From: Paramacrobiotus metropolitanus
Taxonomy: Eukaryota > Tardigrada > Eutardigrada > Parachela > Macrobiotidae
Assembly: GCF_019649055.1 (NCBI RefSeq)
Contig: NW_026570224.1
Location: 434,001-498,000, forward strand
DNA: 64,000 nucleotides
Reading direction: 5' to 3'
Position 1 is the stretch's first letter. Each line of letters opens with the position of its first letter. Below the pieces are notes generated by a model. It was not told the DNA's origin. It did no database searches and worked only from the letters and a program-made list of their open reading frames with translations. This document shows, piece after piece, positions 20,801 through 58,699 of this stretch. A program made the translations under genes and the position numbers.

Positions 20801-21350
20801 GTAGCGGTCACTCGTTTACCTAGCGGTCTGTGTGCTCTGGACAGCAGCGGTAGTTCGGTACTCGTTTACCTAGCGGGCTGTGTGCTCTGGATAGTAGTGG
20901 TAGTTCGGTCACTCGTTTACCTAGCGGGCTGTGTGCTCTGGACAGCAGCGGTAGTTCGGTACTCGTTTACCTAGCGGGCTGTGTGCTCTGGATAGTAGTG
21001 GTAGTTCGGTCACTCGTTTACCTAGCGGGCTGTGCACCTGATAGTAGTGTTAGTCTCGGTACTGTTTACCCAGCGCATGTGCCTGGATAGTGGTAGTTCG
21101 GTCACTCGTTTACCTAGCGGGCTGTGTGCTCTGGATAGTAGTGGTAGTTCGGTCACTCGTTTACCTAGCGGGCTGTGTGCTCTGGACAGCAGCGGTAGTT
21201 CGGTACTCGTTTACCTAGCGGGCTGTGTGCTCTGGATAGTAGTGGTCGTTCGGTCATTCCTTTACCTAGCGGGCTGCGTGCTCTGGATAGTAGTGGTAGT
21301 TCGGTCACTCGTTTACCTAGCGGGCTGCGTGCTCTGGATAGTAGTGGTCG
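20801..21350. repeat. minisatellite, ~51-53 bp unit
   Basis: The unit is roughly ctcgtttacctagcgggctg, then tgtgctctggatagtagtgg, then tagttcggtca. It is repeated about ten times head to tail. Two unit variants (gacagcagcgg with ggta, and gatagtagtgg with ggtca) alternate in parts, showing a two-unit higher-order period. Copies near 21040-21080 are degenerate. Open frames through it are a by-product of repetition. Confidence 0.92.
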
Positions 21351-25136: not shown

Positions 25137-26340
25137 ATGGCTCTAGACCCGCAAGCACTGCAGAATATTCTTAACACCGTTAATGCCGCTTCCGCTCAGC
25201 AGAATGCAGCTTTACAGCAAAGCCTACAGAATAACGCTACTGCACATCAGAATTTATTGAATTTTTTGAATAACCAGAATGCCGCTGCAGTTACCCGTAT
25301 AACATCTCTCGAAATGGGTGATTTGCCGAAGTTTGGTGGTTTTCCACGAAGACGCTCAGGACTTTTAACACAGTTTGAGACGATGGCCGTTGCTAATAAC
25401 TTCACACCAGCTAACAGAATCCAACATTTTGCGCTCTGTTTGAGGAATAACGCTCTTCGCTGGTATACCGCAGAACCAGCAGGTATCACATGGCCAGACC
25501 TTCGATCCCATTTTTTAACAGCTTTTGGAAAAACTCGTTTTGAACTCGATCTCGTGAATGAAGGTTGCCGTACACTAGCATTTACAGATCCTCGTACTTT
25601 TGTCCATCGTGTCCTTGATTACGTGGAAGTCATTAATCCCGCAGCTACCGAAGCAGAAAAGACAGTTCGTCTCTTCGAAGCTTTGCCCCTTGAATTTAAA
25701 CCAGCTTTCGTGACTAACAGCCCCAGAACCGTAGCCGATTTTTTTCAATCGTTTACGTGATGTGTCCGTTAAGCAACACATGTCGCGATGCAGAATCAAA
25801 AAATTCGTCATACCAGGCGTCCAATAATGTTAGATCAGTCAAATCTCTCGTCGCTATACAGCCAACCGACAGCGCCTAGCTCTAATCAGATAGAGATTGT
25901 CGCTCATAACCTGAAAGGTTTGGATGAAAGACTAAAGCATCTTGCTGAACAAATAAAGTGTTTACAGGAGAATAACGAATCACAGGGCATACGATCTTTC
26001 TCAGAATTACTTAACGGGTAATGCGAACCAGTCAACCCTTCGACTCACAGATGCGCCAAGCCAAGACAATGGATGCTTTAATTGCGGTAACTATGATCAT
26101 CTTTCGTATGCTTGCCCGTTTGGAGCTGGCCACTCTACGCAGGCACAGTATGCACAGGCAGAACAAGATTCTGAAGATCGTTATCCGATGTCATTCGGTG
26201 CAGCACAGCATCCACCAACAACGCAGCAACTGACTTTTAACACATCCGGTAAATTACCATCTCAGGCGCAACAGTTTAGGTCTGCAGAATCTCAGGACAC
26301 CGGTAGTGCACAACCGGCGTATTCGAGATGGCAGATTTAA
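25137..26340 (+). pseudogene. degenerate retroelement gag (gag only, no pol)
   Basis: A 207-codon frame from ATG 25137 has a Gln/Asn-rich N-terminus and a retrotransposon Gag core (DLPKFGGFPRRRS, ALRWYTAEPAGITWPDLRSHF, FVHRVLDYVEVINP). This is the Ty3/gypsy-type Gag pattern. The frame breaks at a T-run near 25740, where a one-base shift continues the similarity. A second frame follows from about 25788. A CCHC zinc knuckle (CFNCGNYDHLSYACP) is found at about 26085-26130 in yet another frame. No protease, RT or integrase follows, and the element ends near the stop at 26338. This is a broken, gag-only relic. Confidence 0.8.
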
Positions 26341-30300: not shown

Positions 30301-31462
30301 TAATACGGTTTCATTTACCTTTAAGAAACCGTGCGACAGCTCCCATCCAATATCATTCAAAGCGATCCTTTTTGTGGCTTCCCGCCAGAATTGCACTACG
30401 AAAATCAAATTGTAAAGCCTACAAAAAAGATGATCAGGAACTGTACTACGTGCTTCCAAATCGAAGAATAAGATACGGAAAAAGACATAAATTAAGAACA
30501 GAGGTACAGAACTAACAATATATTTTATCACACGAAACTGCACATCAAACAGCAAGCAATGAAAAACGCCCTCGTCTCTGATGACCGAACAGACAACTGG
30601 AATACTACTTTATAGTAATTTCACTAATTTGTTTCAGTTATATAATAATTCTGCCGTTCCTTATCCTTTACATTGCGTGATACAGCATGACCCAATGCGT
30701 GCTCTTGTTTTCTCGCCAATTACTACTCAGGAGGCGAATATGACCAGCCAAACTTGGGAAAATTAGATCAACACCTACGTAAGTAGTACTAATTTCCATG
30801 AATATTTTCCCGTACAGCAATGTGAAAATCGCTCAATGAGCCTCCACTCTCCTACCTTCTAAAATCACAATATTGCCGGCTTGCTTGAGCGCCGTAACCG
30901 CATCATCATGCGAGGCAGCACTCAAATCATGGCCATTGCATGATAATATTGCATCGCCCACATGCAACTCATGCGTTTTCTCAGCGGCCATATCGGAGAA
31001 GATTTTACTGATGACGATGGGCATCCGGTTCTCCTTGCCTCCCTTAATACTGATTCCCAATCCACTATCGGCATCCTTAACTATCTTTACTGTCCGTTTC
31101 TCACTGGTGAGCGGCGGCGGCGGTGGTGCAACATTACTGGAACTCGAGTAGGGAAAGGAGGACATGTCGTGGTTGGCGAAATTAAATCGACTGTGACTGT
31201 TGGTGTTTGTTGTAGACGCTGCGATATGGTTGTAATTCCGATCTGATCCATAACCGTAACTGCTTCCATAGGGATAACCGGCATCGTCATCGTTCAGTGT
31301 ATCCTCGAAGTTCAAAATCAGGGCATCATCTTCCAGGGTGAGAATGGTCCGTATCCATGTGGAATGGTGCTGGCTGAGCACGTAGGCTGCATTGAAATTA
31401 ACGCCGGGTTCGGGATTGCGTAAAGCCGGCATTCTCGTCCGTCCAAGAGAATTGTAGTACAT
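27377..31462 (-). CDS. syntrophin (alpha/beta class), at least 6 exons, 3' end unresolved
   Basis: Exons 31462-30856, 30395-30319, 29707-29396, 28656-28517, 27846-27620 and 27561-27377 join in phase to 516 residues. A split first PH domain starts at TWIRTILTLEDDALIL. It is interrupted by a PDZ domain (RTVKIVKDADSGLGISIKGG with the GLGI carboxylate loop, then MPIVISKIF and GDAILSCNG) and resumes with EVQFWREA and IGWE. A second PH domain follows (LTERQIMVFDAVPWTKEEW, FLIRVGTRNGIDCHVFKLET, WVKAIIQG), and then the syntrophin-unique region (WENGFTL, QPFEKLKATADDG, LFLEF). Syntrophins are membrane-cortex adaptors that bind dystrophin/dystrobrevin through the C-terminal part and recruit channels and signalling proteins by PDZ. 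The start ATG at 31462 is the first in frame. A Tyr/Gly/Ser-rich insert precedes the PDZ. The last exon was not found. Confidence 0.93.
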
Positions 31463-38744: not shown

Positions 38745-40960
38745 TTGCGCGGCAAGCGAGGCCCTCAATTGCGGCCCCTCCTACCCTCGACGCACACGGC
38801 GGCCCCTTCTACCCTCGACGTAAAACGGCTGCGCCGTTTTATGACGGTAAGTTGGTCACCTATTACGGCCGCATCTACCTCGGACGGCAAAGCAAGCAAC
38901 CAATGTCCCCTGCACCTCATTCGGGCGGTAAGGCGGCCCACTCATCTACGGCTCCAGCCAGTGAGGTCTCAGGCGACGGCCGCACCAACAACCGTCGGCA
39001 ATAATGCCCACCAGGAACGACTGTAAGGGCCTTCAGCGGCAGCAGCACTACCAGTGACGAGTCCATCTTCCTCGGACGGCAGAGAGGCCCCAAGTCTCGG
39101 CGGCGCCTTCCTCCAAAGGCAAGGAGGCTGACGGCTAACCAGGCCACCAAATCCGGCTGCGCCCATCTCCGACGGCAAGAAGACCCCCAGCGGCGGTTGC
39201 ACCTTCCTCGGACGGCAGTCAGGCCCCCTAACCATGGCGGCGCCCTCCTCCGACGGCAAGCAGGCCCACCATCGACGGCCACACCTTCGTCGGACGGCAG
39301 TCAGGCCCCATAACCACGGCGGCGCTCTCCTCCGACGGCAAGCAGGCCCACCATTGACGGCCGCACCTTCCTCGGACGGCAGTCAGGCCCCCTCACCATG
39401 GCGGCGCCCTCCTCCGACGGCAAGCAGGCCCACCATCGACGGCCGCACCTTCGTCGGACGGCAGCCAGGACCCCTAACCACGGCGGCGCCCTCCTCCGAC
39501 GGCAAGCGGGCCCACCATCGACGGCCACACCTTCGTCGGACGGCAGTCAGGCCCCATAACCACGGCGGCGCTCTCCTCCGACGGCAAGCAGGCCCACCAT
39601 TGACGGCCGCACCTTCCTCGGACGGCAGTCAGGCCCCCTAACCATGGCGGCGCTCTCCTCCGACGGCAAGCAGGCCCACCATTGACGGCCGCACCTTCTT
39701 CGGACGGCAGTCAGGCCCCTAACCATGGCGGCGCCCTCTCCGACGGCAAGCAGGCCCACCATCGACGGCCACACCTTCGTCGGACGGCAGTCAGGCCCCA
39801 TAACCACGGCGGCGCTCTCCTCCGACGGCAAGCAGGCCCACCATTGACGGCCGCACCTTCCTCGGACGGCAGTCAGGCCCCCTAACCATGGCGGCGCTCT
39901 CCTCCGACGGCAAGCAGGCCCACCATTGACGGCCGCACCTTCTTCGGACGGCAGTCAGGCCCCCTAACCATGGCGGCGCCCTCCTCCGACGGCAAGCAGG
40001 CCCACCATCGACGGCCACACCTTCGTCGGACGGCAGTCAGGCCCCATAACCACGGCGGCGCTCTCCTCCGACGGCAAGCAGACCCACCATCGACGGCCAC
40101 ACCTTCGTCGGACGGCAGTCAGGCCCCCTAACCACGGCGGCGCTCTCCTCCGACGGCAAGCAGGCCCACCATCGACGGCCGCATCTTCCTCGGACGGCAG
40201 TTAGGCACTCTAACCACGGCGGCGCCCTCCTCCGACGGCACGCAACCCCTAACAACGGCGGCTCTCTTCCTTTGACGGCAAGTTAGGCCTTCTACTACAG
40301 CTGCACTTTCCTGGGACGGCTAGGCAGGCTCCCAGTGACGCCAGCTCCACCTTCTGGGCGGCAAGGCATCACACCTACTACGGCGGCACGTCGAGGCAGC
40401 TCTCTAACTACGGCCGCACCTACCCCTCCGACGGCAAAGATAGGCTTTGGAGAAAGCTGCCTTACTTCGTACGGATTGGTAGCCTTTCAACTACAGTAGC
40501 ATCGTCTTTTAATGGCAAGATAAACCACCAAGGAACGCCCGCACCTTCCTTTGACGGCAAAGCAGACCATTTACTGAGGCTGCATCTGCCTCCGACGGCA
40601 AGATGGAGCTGCAAGGATGGCTGCACCCTTCTAGGACGGCAGACAAGCACCACAGCACGGGCGGCGCCCCCCTCCGACGGCAAGCTACGCTTTTCCCGTT
40701 GCCAAAGAATGCACCCAACTAAGCCTTTAAATCCTATGGGCAGCAAGACGGTTCGTCCATTTTCGGCTGCACCTACCTCAGTCGGTAAAATAGGCATCCA
40801 GCAACGGCTGTATCATTCTTCGCGGCAAGGTGATCTTCCGACTTCGGCCGCACCTGATTATGACAGCAAAGCCGGCCGCCATTGACTGCAGCATTTCCTT
40901 CAACTACAAAGCAAGACACCAACGGCAAACTGCACCATTTCTGACAATAAGGTGGAATGG
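38745..40960. repeat. GC-rich minisatellite field with 82-bp core unit
   Basis: The core at about 39190-40255 consists of about 13 head-to-tail units of roughly 82 bp. Each contains two related halves: ctcctccgacggcaagcagg with cccaccat, and accttcgtcggacggcagtc with aggcccc, joined by taaccacggcggcgc. Flanks from 38.75 to 40.95 kb carry increasingly diverged copies of the ctccgacggcaag word. Because 82 is not a multiple of three, each frame recurs only every third unit. The many open frames on both strands (Arg/Pro/Ala/Gly-rich) are repeat artefacts. GC content is far above the surrounding 35-40%. Confidence 0.93.
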
Positions 40961-47226: not shown

Positions 47227-50200
47227 CTAAGACGATCCAGTACCTTCTGACTCTGTGTTATCATCAATGCTGTCGCTGGATGTTTCCTTACCCTGTGCAA
47301 CTAAAACGCCGTGACCTTTTCTTTGTGACATTTCAAGTTCGGGCTTAAAGGTGACCTGCTGGTTGGGCTTGAGGGTCACATCGATCGCCGGAGTACCGGC
47401 CGCCAATTCCGATTCGGTCATGCCGGTGCCGGCATCTGTGGCGCCTTCGGTCGATTGACTAGATTCTTCGGGTGCCTGGGTGGTTGTTGCGGCTTCCGTG
47501 GTTTCTGCGCCCGCCTCACTGGTCTGCTCTGGTTGTCCGGCTGTGGTGGTTTCAGCGGCAGTTGTTTCTTCAGCGGCAGTAGTACTCTCTTCTTGAGAGG
47601 CGGAAGTGGTTTCTTCTGCCGCTGAGGTTTCGCTGCCGGTAGTCTCCTCTGGTGTTGTGGTCTCCACGGTTGTGTCGGGTTCGGGTTCCGTGGCATCACG
47701 GGTGGTTTCTGTGGAGATGGCGGTTGTTTCGGTTTCCGTTGTCCCCTCGGTGGAAGCTTCCGCAGTTGTCTCCACTGAAGTTTCAGCCGCTTCGGAAGTT
47801 TCACTTCCGGTGGTTGCCTCCGAAGTTTCGGCACCTGTGGTTTCAGCGTCAGTAGACGCCTCTGCAGTTGTGTCTTCCGGGGACGACGACGCCGATGTGC
47901 TGGCACCTTCGGTAGTTTCTGCAGTAGTGTCCTCCACAGTCGTCTCACCAGCAGGCGAGGAACCTTCGCTGGTTTCCGCAGTTGTCTCCTCCGCCGGACT
48001 GGAAGCTTCCGACGCGGCGGTAGTGTCACCTTCCGTGGATCCAGCAGTTGTTTCGGCTTCGGTGGTAGCATCACTCGCCAACTCGGTGCTGGCTTCGGTT
48101 CTGGGTGTATCATCTTCCTCCGTTGTCGTTTCCACTGATTCCGGCGTGGTTGTGTCGGATGCAGCCTCGGCGGTTGTTTCTCCGGTGGAAGCTTCCGCAG
48201 TGGTCTCCTCCGCGCCCGTTGTGCTGGTGCCTTCCGGAGTGGTTTCCGTCTCAGTCGACGCTTCCGGTCCGGAAGTGGTTTCGTCGGCGGGTGACGTGGC
48301 TTCCGTTGTTTCGGCCTCGGCAGTTGACTCTGCTTGAGTGGTCTCCTCAGTGGACATGAGCTCAGTGCTGGCCTCGGTGAATGGCGTCTCATCAGGCTCC
48401 GTCGTCGTTTCCTCTCCTGCCGCTGTTGTTGTCTCTTCGGCTGGTGATGATGCTTCGCTTGTCTCGGTATCGGTCGTTTCTCCCGTGGTTTCAGCAGTCG
48501 TTGTATCCTCAGTGGAAACCAGCTCGGTGCTGGCTTCCGTAAACGGTGTTTCGTCAGATTCGGTGGTGCTTTCCACCGATTCGGAGGTGGTGGTCTCCTC
48601 AGCCGGGGATCCTGATTCGGCTGTCTCAGCAGTGGTATCGGGGGCAGCAGCTGTTGTTTCGTCGGAAGACGAGGCATCGGTGGTTTCGCTTTCAGCAGTG
48701 GTATCGGTGGTTTCGCCCTGGGTAGTGTCTTCGGTCGACATTAGCTCCGTGCTGGCTTCTGTGAACGGAGTTTCATCTGGTTCGGTGGTGGTTTCATCTG
48801 ACGCCGGTGTCGTGGTCTCATCGGCTGGTGACGTGGCTTCGCTGGTCTCACTTTCGGCAGTGGTGTCGGAGGTGTCACCTTGTGTGGTGTCTTCGGTGGA
48901 AACCAGTTCCGTGCTGGCTTCGGTGAACGGGGTCTCATCGGGTTCGGTGGTAGTTTCGTCCGATGCCGCTTCGGTGGTTTCGTCAGCTGGTGATGTGGCC
49001 TCCGTGGTGTCGCCTTCGGTCGTCTCGCCAGTGGACTCACCGGCTGTTGTGTCCTCGGCCGGGGATGATTCACTCGTTGCACTTTCGGTAGTCTCAGCCG
49101 TGCCTTCGGTGGTTTCCTCCGTCGATACCAGTTCGGTGCTGGCCTCGGTGAAGGGCGTCTCGTCCGGCTCGGCTGTGGTTTCGGCCGATTCCGCAGTGGT
49201 GGTTTCTTCCGCGGGAGTCGTAGCATCTGCCTCCGCTGTTGTCTCATCGGACACTGATGCTTCCGTGGTCTCGCTTGCGTCAGTAGTTTCGCCTTGAGTG
49301 GTTTCTTCTGTGGACACCAGTTCAGTGCTGGCTTCGGTGAACGGCGTTTCGTCGGGCTCGGATGTGGTCTCATCTGACACCGCTTCGGTCGTACTCTCGT
49401 CAGCTGGGGTCGTTGCTTCCGTGGTATCACCTTCGGTAGACTCACCAGTGGTTTCCGCTTGTGTGGTCTCCTCAGTGGACACCAACTCGGTGCTCGCTTC
49501 AGTGAAAGGTGTCTCATCGGGTTCGGTGGTGGTTTCGGCCGCTTCGGAAGTTGTTGTTTCTTCTGCCGATGGTGTCGGTTCTGCGGTTTCCGTAGTGGTG
49601 TCCGCGGCGGTGGATTCACCGGAAGGAGACGATGCTTCCGATGTTTCGCCTTCGATGGTTGTATCAGTGATCTCGCTGGCCGTTGTCTCTTCAGTCGATA
49701 TGAGAATGGTTGATTCAGTCGCCGGACCTTCTTCGGTAGTTTCTGCAGCGGGCGTCGCCTCGGAAGTCGTTTCCGCAGGTGACTCGCTCGTCGTTTCCGC
49801 GGACGTTTCCGGAGTGGTCTCCGCACTGACTTCCGCGGTGGTTTCCGCTGTTGTTTCCTCGGGCGTGGTTTCTGCACTAGCTTCGGAAGTGGTTTCGGCG
49901 GTTGTAGTTTCGGCTGACGTTTCCGCTGTGGTTTCAGCAGTGGTCTCAGCGGTAGTAGTCTCGGTTGTTGTTTCCGTTGTCGTTTCGACTGTAGTGGTAT
50001 CAGTGGTAGTCGACTCGGTGGTAGTTGGTGTAGTCGCTTCTGTTGTGGTCGTTGTTGGTGCCGGTGTGGTAGCCAGATGTGGCACTTCGGTGCTGGGTTT
50101 CGATGCTTTGGTGGTGGTGGGTGTGGTCGATGGGCCAATGGTTGTTGGACGTGTAACTGATTTACAATCAACTAGACAAAATATTTCCATCAGTTTTTGT

Positions 50201-51792
50201 CTCGGTTGATATTTCACCTCTGAATGGACAAGTATGGTACTGGTACAGTACAATTACAGCACTTACCGGCGTGGCAATTTGCTGCACTGCATTGACGCGG
50301 ATACTTCGACGCCAGTTTTTTACAGTCACACAGTGACAATTCGTCCAACTGGGGAATGAAATACGGCGCCACTTTAACGTGGAATACCGGCTTGCCGGGT
50401 TTGCTGAACTCTTCCGGTTGATTGTGGGTAACGGAGCACAAATCGTACGGGCAAATGTTGGCAAACGAGTTGTCATTATATGTAGGGAAAGCAATCTCCA
50501 AACCTGAACAGCCAAAATCATCATGCATATTTCTTCACTTTGCAGGAAGTAGCAACTAGCTACTAGCGCGCCTACCGAAACTTGCGTTTTAAAAAAAGTT
50601 CACCATTGCTGTATGCCACTTATAATGCCAGTGAATTATTTGCGCCACATTTTACGGTTACCGTGTTACGGTCAGCTAGCAGCTCGCTTACCAGGAATGA
50701 TATTGTTGAGGAACATCTCGATAGCGTTGTGGCGATCGGGACGTCTGTGTTCCGAGTTGAGACCCAGTGAAATGACGACGAACTTCATGATGCCGCGCAC
50801 CGTATTGGAGCAGGCATGTGGACCGCGTCCGACGATGGTGATTCTCTGTTCAGTGGCCAGACTGAAGAAGGCTTTGGAGTATCCAGAGTATGCGGAGCAG
50901 CGGGTGGCGGGAGTGCGGCTGTTTTGCGAAACAAATGAATGAGCTAACGGTGTTAGTATAGTGATATCATTTACAGGCTACTTACTCGTCCTTTTCGAAA
51001 GGCGTGAACAGAATCTTAAACGTCCAGCTGGAGCGTGCCACCTCTTGGAATTTTATGCATCCGTTCATATCTTTTGTGATTTTGTCCAGTGCTTTCTTGA
51101 TAAGCCTGACATGCCCGTCAGCTGCAATGTTGTTTCGTTAAAGAGTGTAAACGCACACACTGCAGAGAGATGTTGAGTTTTGTGGTCAATGGTAAAGAAA
51201 CGTACTGAACCCTCTTATGATGGTGTACGGGATAGTTGCGCTAGGCCACGAAGCTCCGACTGTTGGTCCGAAAAGGCCCCTCGTTTGAGCATGTTCCACA
51301 GCATCGGCTTCGTCCACGGATTGTACAGATTTGGCTACAAACAGGAACGCTTGTATAGTGGCTGTACGCTGCACACGCTCAACCGGGACAAACACAGATA
51401 CCTATGTGACACTTTTGACATTTTCTGTATAGGTCAGGTCATAGCTCGGCAACTCTGAAGGCGAAGAATGAGCTAGTACATCTACAGTAAACTACTCCAA
51501 CATGACCTTTACCATAATTACGTCCCTGTTTGAAATAAGTGTTGCCGATAAATTGTAATTTATAACTACACAATTTTCATTTGCAATCGATCCCTAAAAA
51601 CTGCTGTTATTCTGCATTGGAGTGTCGGAAGAAACGAATGTCAGAGGAGGTAGTCAACCGGTGGCTTACCGATTTGGAGATAGCAAATTAATTATCGAAA
51701 TTACAGATTTGTTAAATTATGGGCTTACCGGCTATCCGCGAAATGCACAGCACCACCAGCACGGCCGTTGACAGTAATAAAGAAGATCTCAT
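47227..51792 (-). CDS. astacin-like pseudoprotease fused to Thr/Glu-rich mucin-like tail, 6 exons, 1245 aa
   Basis: Exons 51792-51729, 51334-51206, 51121-50986, 50918-50692, 50503-50267 and 50171-47227 join in phase. A signal peptide (MRSSLLLSTAVLVVLCIS) leads into an M12A astacin scaffold: SWPSATIPYTI, IKKALDKI...GCIKFQEV, and YDLCSVTHNQP at the Met-turn position. At the zinc site the usual HExxHxxGxxH is replaced by RGIMKF, VVIS, LGLNSEHRRPDR (residues 151-172). No zinc-ligand pattern and no catalytic Glu remain, and the Met-turn SVMHY is SVTHN (209-213). From residue 265 a 981-residue tail of Thr, Glu, Ser and Ala carries seven good and one degenerate copies of a DETPFTEASTELVSTEETT unit. 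Few sequons are present; O-glycosylation is likely. The product is probably a secreted, inactive, structural or binding protein. Gene 53803-55280 is its paralogue. Confidence 0.88.
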
Positions 51793-53802: not shown

Positions 53803-55280
53803 CTAAACTTCGATTGTCTGCTTACAGAATTCGCAGGTAGTAGATGGACAGCCGTAAAGCTCCGTAAGTTCTTTACAGTCGCACCCACTGAGTCGGCCAG
53901 TTTTTGGTATGTAAAACGGAGCATTCTTCACTGTGAACATTTGCAGTCCCCGTTTTGCGAAGTCGCTCGGTTGGTTATGAGTAACTGAGCCTGCGCAATA
54001 AGTAACTACGTTAGTTTGTGGCACAATAATACAGACATATATTGCACTTAATGTTGTTCCAAAATTACGTACAGTAATCATAATTGCAAATGTAGAGAAA
54101 TGATTCCACTGGATGAGGTCGGAAAGCAATTTCGGCACCTATTGGTCAACCGCAAAAAAATCAACTAATTGGAAGCCAACGTCAGATATATAGCAGTAAT
54201 TCGAAATTTTCTTCCGAAAATCATTTTTTGCAAAGTGAAGGTTCTTTCAACCCAGGCTATTGCGATACAAAATCATTAATTACCTTGTTGTATGTTACTC
54301 ATATTTACTGTTAGATGTTCGTCCCGATCGTGGCGTTGATGCTCGTTGCGCCTTCCTGACAAAGAAAACATTGCTAAAACTGCAAACCATTTACGCATAT
54401 TTTATCTTCATTATTTATAGAATAGCGCGCTCGCAAGCTAACCATGCTATTCATTGTTCGCATTACCCATGCTGATAGTGAACATTTTCATAAGGTCATG
54501 TTGAGTTCCCATGCATCCATCGTCGCCACGAGCAATAACCAAGCGCTGCTCCGACTTCCTTTTGTCGGCCAAGTAAGCCTTGTAAATTCCGGGCCAGGAG
54601 GCACAATACTTAGCAGCCGTTTTGCTGGTAAATAGATAAATCAGTAAGTACACACTTTTGAAAAAAATTAATAAATAAATGCAAAGTCAGGAATAACTTT
54701 TCACGCTTCCTTAACTTGTATTTTATAAATATTTCTGTAGCAGTGTAATGGCAGCAGCACATACTTGTCTTTTTCAAATGGAGTGATTCTCAGTTTGTAT
54801 TTGGTGACATTGCAAGCCACTTGCTCAAATTTAGTGCAGTTCCTGACACCGTTTTCTACCGCTCTCATCGCTTTCGTCATTTGGTCTTGCTCGTCTTGAG
54901 CTGCAACGTCAACGCACAATTGTCAATTGCGTAACAAAAAATAATATGAGTTACAATGTAAGTTATAATGCGGCCGACATACAGTACGAGGCATCGAAAC
55001 AGTAGGTGATGGTCTTTTTGGGCCACAACCAGAACTGATGCCGGGTGCTGTAAGGGACGAACGCCGCCCGCAGGTTGGATCTGGCCGATGGTCTTTCAAA
55101 TCCCAGCGCATCCCTCAGGTCCGTCTGAGCTGAAAACTTTCATTTATAATAAAAAAATACTATACCAAATACACACGCATACCGACGATACGCCGAAGAC
55201 TGCCTACCTGTTGCGCTGTTAATTGCCACAATAGCGACAATGATAACGGCACTCGTAATAAACATCCTCAGTGCTGTCAT
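53803..55280 (-). CDS. astacin-like pseudoprotease, 7 exons, 279 aa
   Basis: Exons 55280-55208, 55129-54983, 54900-54765, 54624-54467, 54355-54284, 54138-54073 and 53990-53803 are all in phase. After a signal peptide (MTALRMFITSAVIIVAIVAI) the astacin scaffold is clear: RAAFVPYSTR, LWPKKTITYCFDAS, MTKAMRAVENGVRNCTKFEQV, RHDRDEHLTVNMSNIQ (the family's RxDRDxxVxxxxxNI) and NYDYCSVTHNQP. The active site is lost. His161 is followed by Asp in place of Glu, the second His is Lys165, the third is Asn175, and the Met-turn Met is Thr221. A four-residue insertion sits between helix and Gly172. There is no Thr-rich tail; the protein ends soon after CDCKELTELYGC. It is secreted, with several Cys for disulphides. 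It is paralogous to 47227-51792 and in the same orientation. Confidence 0.88.
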
Positions 55281-57751: not shown

Positions 57752-58699
57752 ATGTTCCGTTTGATTTTATTTGTTCTTGCTGTGGTTATTTTAGGTGATT
57801 CGGCTAAAGGATTGTTGTCTTCTAACTACGATAGACTACCTGCCGAAGACAAACAGGATCAACTATGGCAGAAAATCGCCCGTGATCCGTATCGGGAAAA
57901 TGAGCTTCCTACGGCTAATCCCAGCTTCTTCTCCTTGCTCAATCTATTTTTTCCGCCATTTCTCAAGAAATCCTTCACCCATGATGGCGATGAGATGCCC
58001 AACACCCGGCAGAAGCTGATTCATACATACGGAAGTGTGGCCAAAATGGAATTCCGTACCAACCCTAACATCACCACGTCGTTCACGGGATTGCTCCGAT
58101 CAGGCGCCATCGGCTTCGTGCGTCTCTCCCTGGCCAGACAGAGTGAGGATACGTTTATTCCGGGAATGGGAGTGAAATTTTTGATCGATGGTAAACCGTC
58201 TCTCAACATGCATGTGATGAATTCGCTGGAAGGGCAAGGGGGAAATAAAAATTTCTTTGAACGGACGTTCCGGAATATCATCCCCGCTCCCTCATCAATG
58301 AAGCTGAAGCTCCTGTCCAAAGCTTTCGCAGTGGCTATTTGGTTTCTACCGGGCGGCAGAGACGATCGCCCCGAATCGGAAACAAATCTGCCACTTTACG
58401 AACATGCGGCTGTCGATAATGAAGGGCGTGCCGTTTCGCCGGTGGTAGCGCCATACGAAATCTCGTTCACACCTAATCCGGAGCTGGCATGGTCACCGGA
58501 TACAACCGAGGATTTGCGAGTGAATCTGGGGAAGATTCCGGTGGGGTCGGTTTTGTATACGGTTACAGCCAAAAGAGGACTGCGAATGGAAGCGGAGACC
58601 ATTGGCGAAATTATTAGCACTAGCCGCTTTGTTGCATCGCGATATGGAGATGAAATATTATTCTTTCAGCATGCTAGACACCGTTGGCAATCATCGTAG
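57752..58699 (+). CDS. intronless secreted protein, resembles bacterial catalase-like uncharacterised family, 315 aa
   Basis: A single uninterrupted frame of 315 codons starts with a signal peptide (MFRLILFVLAVVILGDSAKG). The conserved-looking core includes HTYGSVAKMEF, then FTGLLRSGAIGFVRLSLA, GMGVKFLIDGKPSLNMH, NSLEGQGGNKNFFERTF and NIIPAP. Blocks near the end are PYEISFTPNPEL, FRV-like DLRVNLGKIPVG and SVLYTV. From memory of the family, mostly bacterial secreted proteins with a heme-catalase-like beta-barrel have the same order (HT.G..A...F, YTGL, G.LRLS, PG...K...DG.PS.N, GQG...NFF). I cannot confirm heme ligands, so no enzymatic activity is claimed. It is the only sizeable intronless gene besides the bHLH gene in a region where other genes have 2-14 exons, which is compatible with horizontal acquisition. 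Confidence 0.8.
   Translation: MFRLILFVLAVVILGDSAKGLLSSNYDRLPAEDKQDQLWQKIARDPYRENELPTANPSFFSLLNLFFPPFLKKSFTHDGDEMPNTRQKLIHTYGSVAKMEFRTNPNITTSFTGLLRSGAIGFVRLSLARQSEDTFIPGMGVKFLIDGKPSLNMHVMNSLEGQGGNKNFFERTFRNIIPAPSSMKLKLLSKAFAVAIWFLPGGRDDRPESETNLPLYEHAAVDNEGRAVSPVVAPYEISFTPNPELAWSPDTTEDLRVNLGKIPVGSVLYTVTAKRGLRMEAETIGEIISTSRFVASRYGDEILFFQHARHRWQSS

Follow-up and report, generated by a model that had tools for sequence, protein, structure and literature searches.

The closest described relatives of the two genes analyzed here (A and B) are the M12A astacins, which include tolloid/BMP1, the meprins, the hatching enzymes, and crayfish astacin. Both genes lie on the minus strand of the window, the 64,000-nucleotide stretch of Paramacrobiotus metropolitanus DNA that was analyzed. 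They resemble these enzymes in a near-full match to the family profile, the four canonical cysteines, the ExxRxDR and YD.S..H motifs, and a secretion-like N terminus but, unlike them, have no intact HExxHxxGxxH motif, no Met-turn Met, and no Tyr ligand, and have largely lost the IGQR loop. They also differ from astacins in having four extra cysteines and, in B, a predicted mucin-like tail. The SIMHY Met-turn and the other astacin motifs used here were taken from PMC9848320, a paper whose main text does not contain the word "inactive." Pseudopeptidases have been much studied among the ADAMs (the M12B subfamily) and are known in other families, as set out in the sections consulted of a review of inactive metallopeptidases (PMC11266112). 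According to the same sections, the pseudopeptidase ADAMs (ADAM2, 11, 22, 23, and UNC-71) are metzincins with replaced zinc residues, as are A and B, and have non-catalytic roles, but they typically retain the Met-turn, which A and B have lost (PMC11266112). The rows examined in the tables of that review have no entry from the astacin branch, and those examined in a table of PMC4826915 give non-peptidase homologs in other families and none for M12A. The ADAMs also belong to a different subfamily from A and B and have a different domain set.

Another parallel is found among the chitinase-like lectins, whose fold is unrelated to that of the astacins. An inactive member with a peritrophin domain from the scorpion gut is a secreted dead enzyme that is suggested, in the portion of the report used here, to help form an extracellular gel (PMC4398375); its likeness to A and B is an analogy only. 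Among the matches listed from full-text literature, mainly open-access and exclusive of bioRxiv preprints, none names a pseudo-astacin family, and the statement in a preliminary description of gene A that no described family has this degeneration is uncontradicted within that scope. We tentatively read A and B as a maintained, secreted tandem pair of pseudo-astacins that derive from a probably zinc-less ancestor and have a matrix-binding or structural role, and assign a probability of roughly 0.45 to this statement as a whole.

Gene A (55280-53803, minus strand) comprises seven GT-AG exons separated by introns of 78–145 nt. The models of both genes were made by hand from the genomic sequence. 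As described previously, the modeled exons of A splice in phase; they would give one in-frame product of 279 residues in which the only stop codon is the terminal one, and the other two sense frames have 12 stops each. Exon 1 (55208..55280; all exons of both genes are on the minus strand) contains the start codon and a hydrophobic N terminus, judged by eye to be signal-peptide-like, and exon 2 (54983..55129) contains a short pro-region and the WP..I.Y entry into the astacin domain. The N-terminal subdomain with C95 is in exon 3 (54765..54900), and exon 4 (54467..54624) includes two cysteines, C126 and C156, and the helix that formerly bound zinc, HDLMKMFTISM(G). Exon 5 (54284..54355) encodes RRNEHQRHDRD, in which N175 is at the position of the third zinc His and the family Glu, E176, is retained. 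Exon 6 (54073..54138) encodes EIAF...ICNYDY with the extra C213, and exon 7 (53803..53990) extends from the degenerate Met-turn, (C)SVTHN, through the stop codon. The cysteines of exon 7 include the extra C218 (its codon split with exon 6), C254, and C256, together with C270, which is past the reference segments. By alignment, the canonical cysteines, which in astacins form two disulfides, are present as C95, C126, C156, and C265, and the ExxRxDRD region that follows the third His is complete (EHQRHDRD). The astacin identity proposed earlier is borne out by Pfam, which returns Astacin (PF01400) as the sole family (E 9e-18, 65 bits, cut-off 22.5) in a match that begins at residue 60 and covers profile positions 2–189 of 189. 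A phmmer search with gene A against solved structures gave 19 sequences with E values of 10 or less, of which tolloid-like 1 is the best (3.7e-06); the others include BMP1, hatching enzymes, meprins, crayfish astacin, one chain labeled just metalloendopeptidase, and two unrelated proteins.

The sequence corresponding to HExxHxxGxxH is HDLMKMFTISMGRRN in A and RGIMKFVVISLGLNS in B, and the motif is missing in every register, although the register before the Gly is ambiguous. In gene A the catalytic Glu, the second and third His, the Met-turn Met, and the Tyr ligand are replaced. Three alignments agree with the earlier placement of G172 and N175 at the motif Gly and the third His, and gene A consequently lacks the Glu and the second and third His in every such register. 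The Met-turn is SVTHN in both genes as compared with SIMHY with its zinc-binding Tyr: T221 of gene A replaces the Met, as had been reported, and N223 replaces the Tyr ligand, a change absent from the preliminary description; Thr and Asn are found in gene B too. The segment from C155 to S174 of gene B contains zero His and zero Glu, so that B has neither a zinc His nor the catalytic Glu in any register. Judged from their zinc-site and Met-turn residues, neither A nor B qualifies as an astacin peptidase, and both are almost certainly non-catalytic. The FxGD aspartate-switch motif of astacin pro-regions is absent from the pro-regions of both genes when these are read directly. A gene-model artefact, in which alternative splicing restores the zinc motif, deserves mention because the models are hand-made and a motif split by a junction would fall outside a scan of unspliced frames. 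However, HExxH has no occurrence in the minus-strand frames of the unspliced window, its one match in the six unspliced frames being at position 30531 on the plus strand, and the degenerate helix arises independently in both genes; an artefact is scarcely credible.

Upstream of G172 the alignments differ. The preliminary description placed H161-D-L-M-K165 on HExxH, a register in which the first His is kept, Asp replaces Glu, and Lys replaces the second His; its statement that every zinc-site residue is replaced fails in that register, in which H161 is the first His, but stands in the register that begins at K165. Alignment of an A+B profile with 3vtg places K165, M166, and I169 at H, E, and H, and MAFFT places M166 at the first His, a gap at the Glu, and I169 at the second His. 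A phmmer alignment of gene B with 3edi puts R160-G161 of B, the partners of H161-D162 in A, on H-E with a four-residue insertion. Global pairwise alignment of gene A with the 3vtg segment was run under 20 parameter settings: H161-D162 on H-E came out best, alone or jointly, in 19 of them, and K165 in 2. The registers obtained for A against the 3edi segment, and for B, were widely scattered. Pairwise alignment was rejected as the arbiter of the register since its settings disagree, the earlier register being the commonest for A against 3vtg. From the cysteine (C156 in A) to the motif Gly (G172 in A), both genes have a spacing of 16 residues, as compared with 15 in the two references. On this ground the K165 register, which calls for one residue inserted before the helix as compared with about four inside the helix for the earlier register, is favored over H161 for the first His of gene A, although the assignment of H161 and K165 to the first and second His is ambiguous. 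All zinc-site residues of gene A are replaced in the favored register, and A and B agree in four of the six residues of the site (K, I, T, and N); the zinc pocket would then be filled by Lys, Met/Phe, and Ile plus Asn/Ser, Thr, and Asn.

In the earlier register A would retain H161 as its one zinc His, with the Glu replaced by Asp; this would count against our reading as a whole and would be compatible with an enzyme that uses a relocated metal site or different chemistry, for which the conservation of E176, H177, D216, and H222 in both A and B could also be cited. E176, D216, and H222, however, do not vary among the five active reference segments either and are explained by the fold; H177 and H222 are the only His conserved between A and B, and H161 is unmatched by His in B. 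Persisting enzymatic activity is highly improbable.

Gene B (51792-47227, minus strand) lies 2 kb downstream of gene A on the same strand, and its head also matches Astacin in Pfam (E 9e-15, 55.3 bits, cut-off 22.5). Exon 1 (51729..51792) contains the start codon and an N terminus whose hydrophobic, signal-peptide-like stretch was judged by eye, exon 2 (51206..51361) the pro-region and a WP..IPY entry, and exon 4 (50692..50918), which follows exon 3 (50986..51121), the former zinc helix, RGIMKFVVISLGLNSEHRRPDR. The astacin-like domain ends in exon 5 (50267..50503), which includes CPYDLCSVTHNQP and CDCK. The canonical cysteines of B align as C95, C126, C155, and C266, and its ExxRxDRD region, EHRRPDRH, is missing the final D. 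The two proteins are 36% identical in a BLASTP alignment of 275 columns. Introns 2, 3, and 4 of B match introns 2, 3, and 5 of A in column and phase; the first introns have the same phase and are separated by two columns, and A has two more introns. The four extra cysteines of A (C213, C218, C254, and C256) have counterparts in B, and none of the five reference segments has Cys at these positions. These references are segments of solved active astacins, with 29 columns invariant in at least four of the five; A and B each keep 17 of the 29 and have lost 12, and the four zinc and Met-turn columns among the 29 are lost in both. The columns of the first His and the Glu, covered by two of the five segments, were judged separately from the 29.

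Because A and B share the losses, the intron positions, and the four extra cysteines, the loss of the zinc site probably predates their duplication. The simplest history would be loss of the site in an ancestor, followed by duplication and long maintenance of both copies. The earlier view of A as inactive, secreted-looking, and maintained is supported, and a diverged adjacent paralog with matching losses argues for maintenance rather than a pseudogene more strongly than do the exon phases used previously. Over 211 domain codons, A and B differ at 46% of first, 39% of second, and 66% of third positions, and the greater divergence of third positions is suggestive of purifying selection in its direction. 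Their synonymous divergence is saturated (dS of 2.45 by LWL85, undefined by NG86), so dN/dS for the pair is just suggestive. Searches for relatives of the A+B alignment confirmed none among 29 viral and 54 bacterial or archaeal pattern stretches, a result with no bearing on animal orthologs.

The surrounding DNA was sampled by a Pfam search of 20 ORFs picked by eye from 267 of at least 70 aa, as a sample of the gene content. Exon matches to SHQ1, the GS motif and kinase of a TGF-beta type I receptor, syntrophin, and a CBF/NF-Y histone fold identify the window as animal; a match to PTHB1 is below the cut-off. A tRNA scan of the window found none, and a promoter scan that found nothing used a prokaryotic model and is of no meaning for animal DNA. 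The window also contains a single-exon ORF of 315 aa (57752-58696, plus strand) that has a hydrophobic N terminus and for which Pfam gives nothing at E up to 10, a tandem array with a period of 82 bp and 13.5 copies that is open in several frames (39140-40244), a second array of 10.9 copies of a 51-bp unit (20805-21348), and a weak zinc-knuckle match, possibly from a retroelement gag (25957-26337, plus strand; E 0.0027, under the curated cut-off).

Exon 5 of gene B is followed by a GTAAGT donor and four candidate in-frame acceptors (50219, 50171, 50156, and 50105), all of which lead into one open 3-kb frame that would form exon 6 (47227..50219). Read through without this splice, gene B ends at 290 aa. 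With the predicted tail, the product would total 1232–1270 aa, of which the Thr/Glu-rich tail represents 959–997; the tail from the 50219 acceptor has 997 residues, 42% S+T, a net charge of -240, two Cys, and no N-x-S/T. B probably splices into this long mucin-like tail, which is probably O-glycosylated. Just downstream of B is a further S/T-rich ORF (45269-43473, minus strand) of 598 aa with 43% S+T and 37 N-x-S/T sequons, for which Pfam gives no match with an E of 0.1 or less. Exon 7 of gene A contains an apparently unused GTAAG donor (GTAAGC; 53821..53825, minus strand) in the same phase as intron 5 of B and, counted from the aligned C270 of A and C271 of B, in the same place. This GTAAG, one of 63 on the 64-kb minus strand, is 15 nt before the stop codon and makes the C terminus of gene A uncertain. 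The acceptors listed for A are those in phase 1 that have 10 or more pyrimidines out of 15 or open a frame of 35 aa or longer. None of these leads to a mucin-like frame, the longest frame being 71 aa; gene A may have lost a mucin-like tail or may retain an exon that escapes detection.

A lost tail exon in A would fit a history in which both genes are decaying toward loss, as would the disappearance of residues that are usually under strong constraint. At 36% identity, however, both copies are still open and spliceable with the four canonical cysteines, and the motifs SVTHNQP, CDCK, and TPFEKD are common to A and B, which makes decay very unlikely. It is also unlikely, although less so, that the dead domain acts as a regulator of active astacins by competing for substrates, inhibitors, or dimer partners, as a decoy or dominant-negative form. 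Such a role would be in keeping with the retention of E176 and the ExxRxDR region, the organizers of the mature fold, and pseudopeptidases are described as regulators of their active cousins in the sections consulted of PMC11266112. Against it, the changes to the site amount to a rebuilding and go beyond minimal mutation, extending to 12 of the 29 reference-invariant columns in each gene, and a decoy has no need of the long tail of B. When all six frames of the window were searched with the A+B profile, which consists of two sequences and could miss a distant astacin, the exons of A and B alone exceeded the inclusion threshold; the search gave no further copies and no active astacin.

Returning to a matrix-binding or structural role for the pair, such a role is indicated by the loss of the zinc site in a domain that retains the fold markers: the four canonical cysteines, the Gly, ExxRxDR, YD, and S-V-x-H. 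The four cysteines that were gained are adjacent to the former Met-turn and where the last helix begins. A disulfide staple there could stand in for zinc, and the astacin domain may have been reused as a binding or structural module pinned by disulfides. The head of B would use its old cleft or its surface to dock to a partner (a peptide, glycan, or matrix protein), and its acidic tail would provide hydrated bulk. Because the tail of B is long, acidic, and probably O-glycosylated, the pair most likely acts outside cells in a gel, coat, or cuticle, and the option of a structural cuticle or mucus component, raised earlier for gene A alongside a decoy, an inhibitor, and a carbohydrate or matrix binder, gains weight. 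A more specific proposal, which we regard as doubtful, is that A and B represent a mucin-tailed pseudo-astacin lineage in which a staple between the Met-turn and the last helix replaced the zinc pin and a protease was converted to a building or docking block of the matrix. The pair provides a test of whether a metzincin fold can persist without zinc and without the Met-turn, and of the turning of a protease domain into a part of the matrix.
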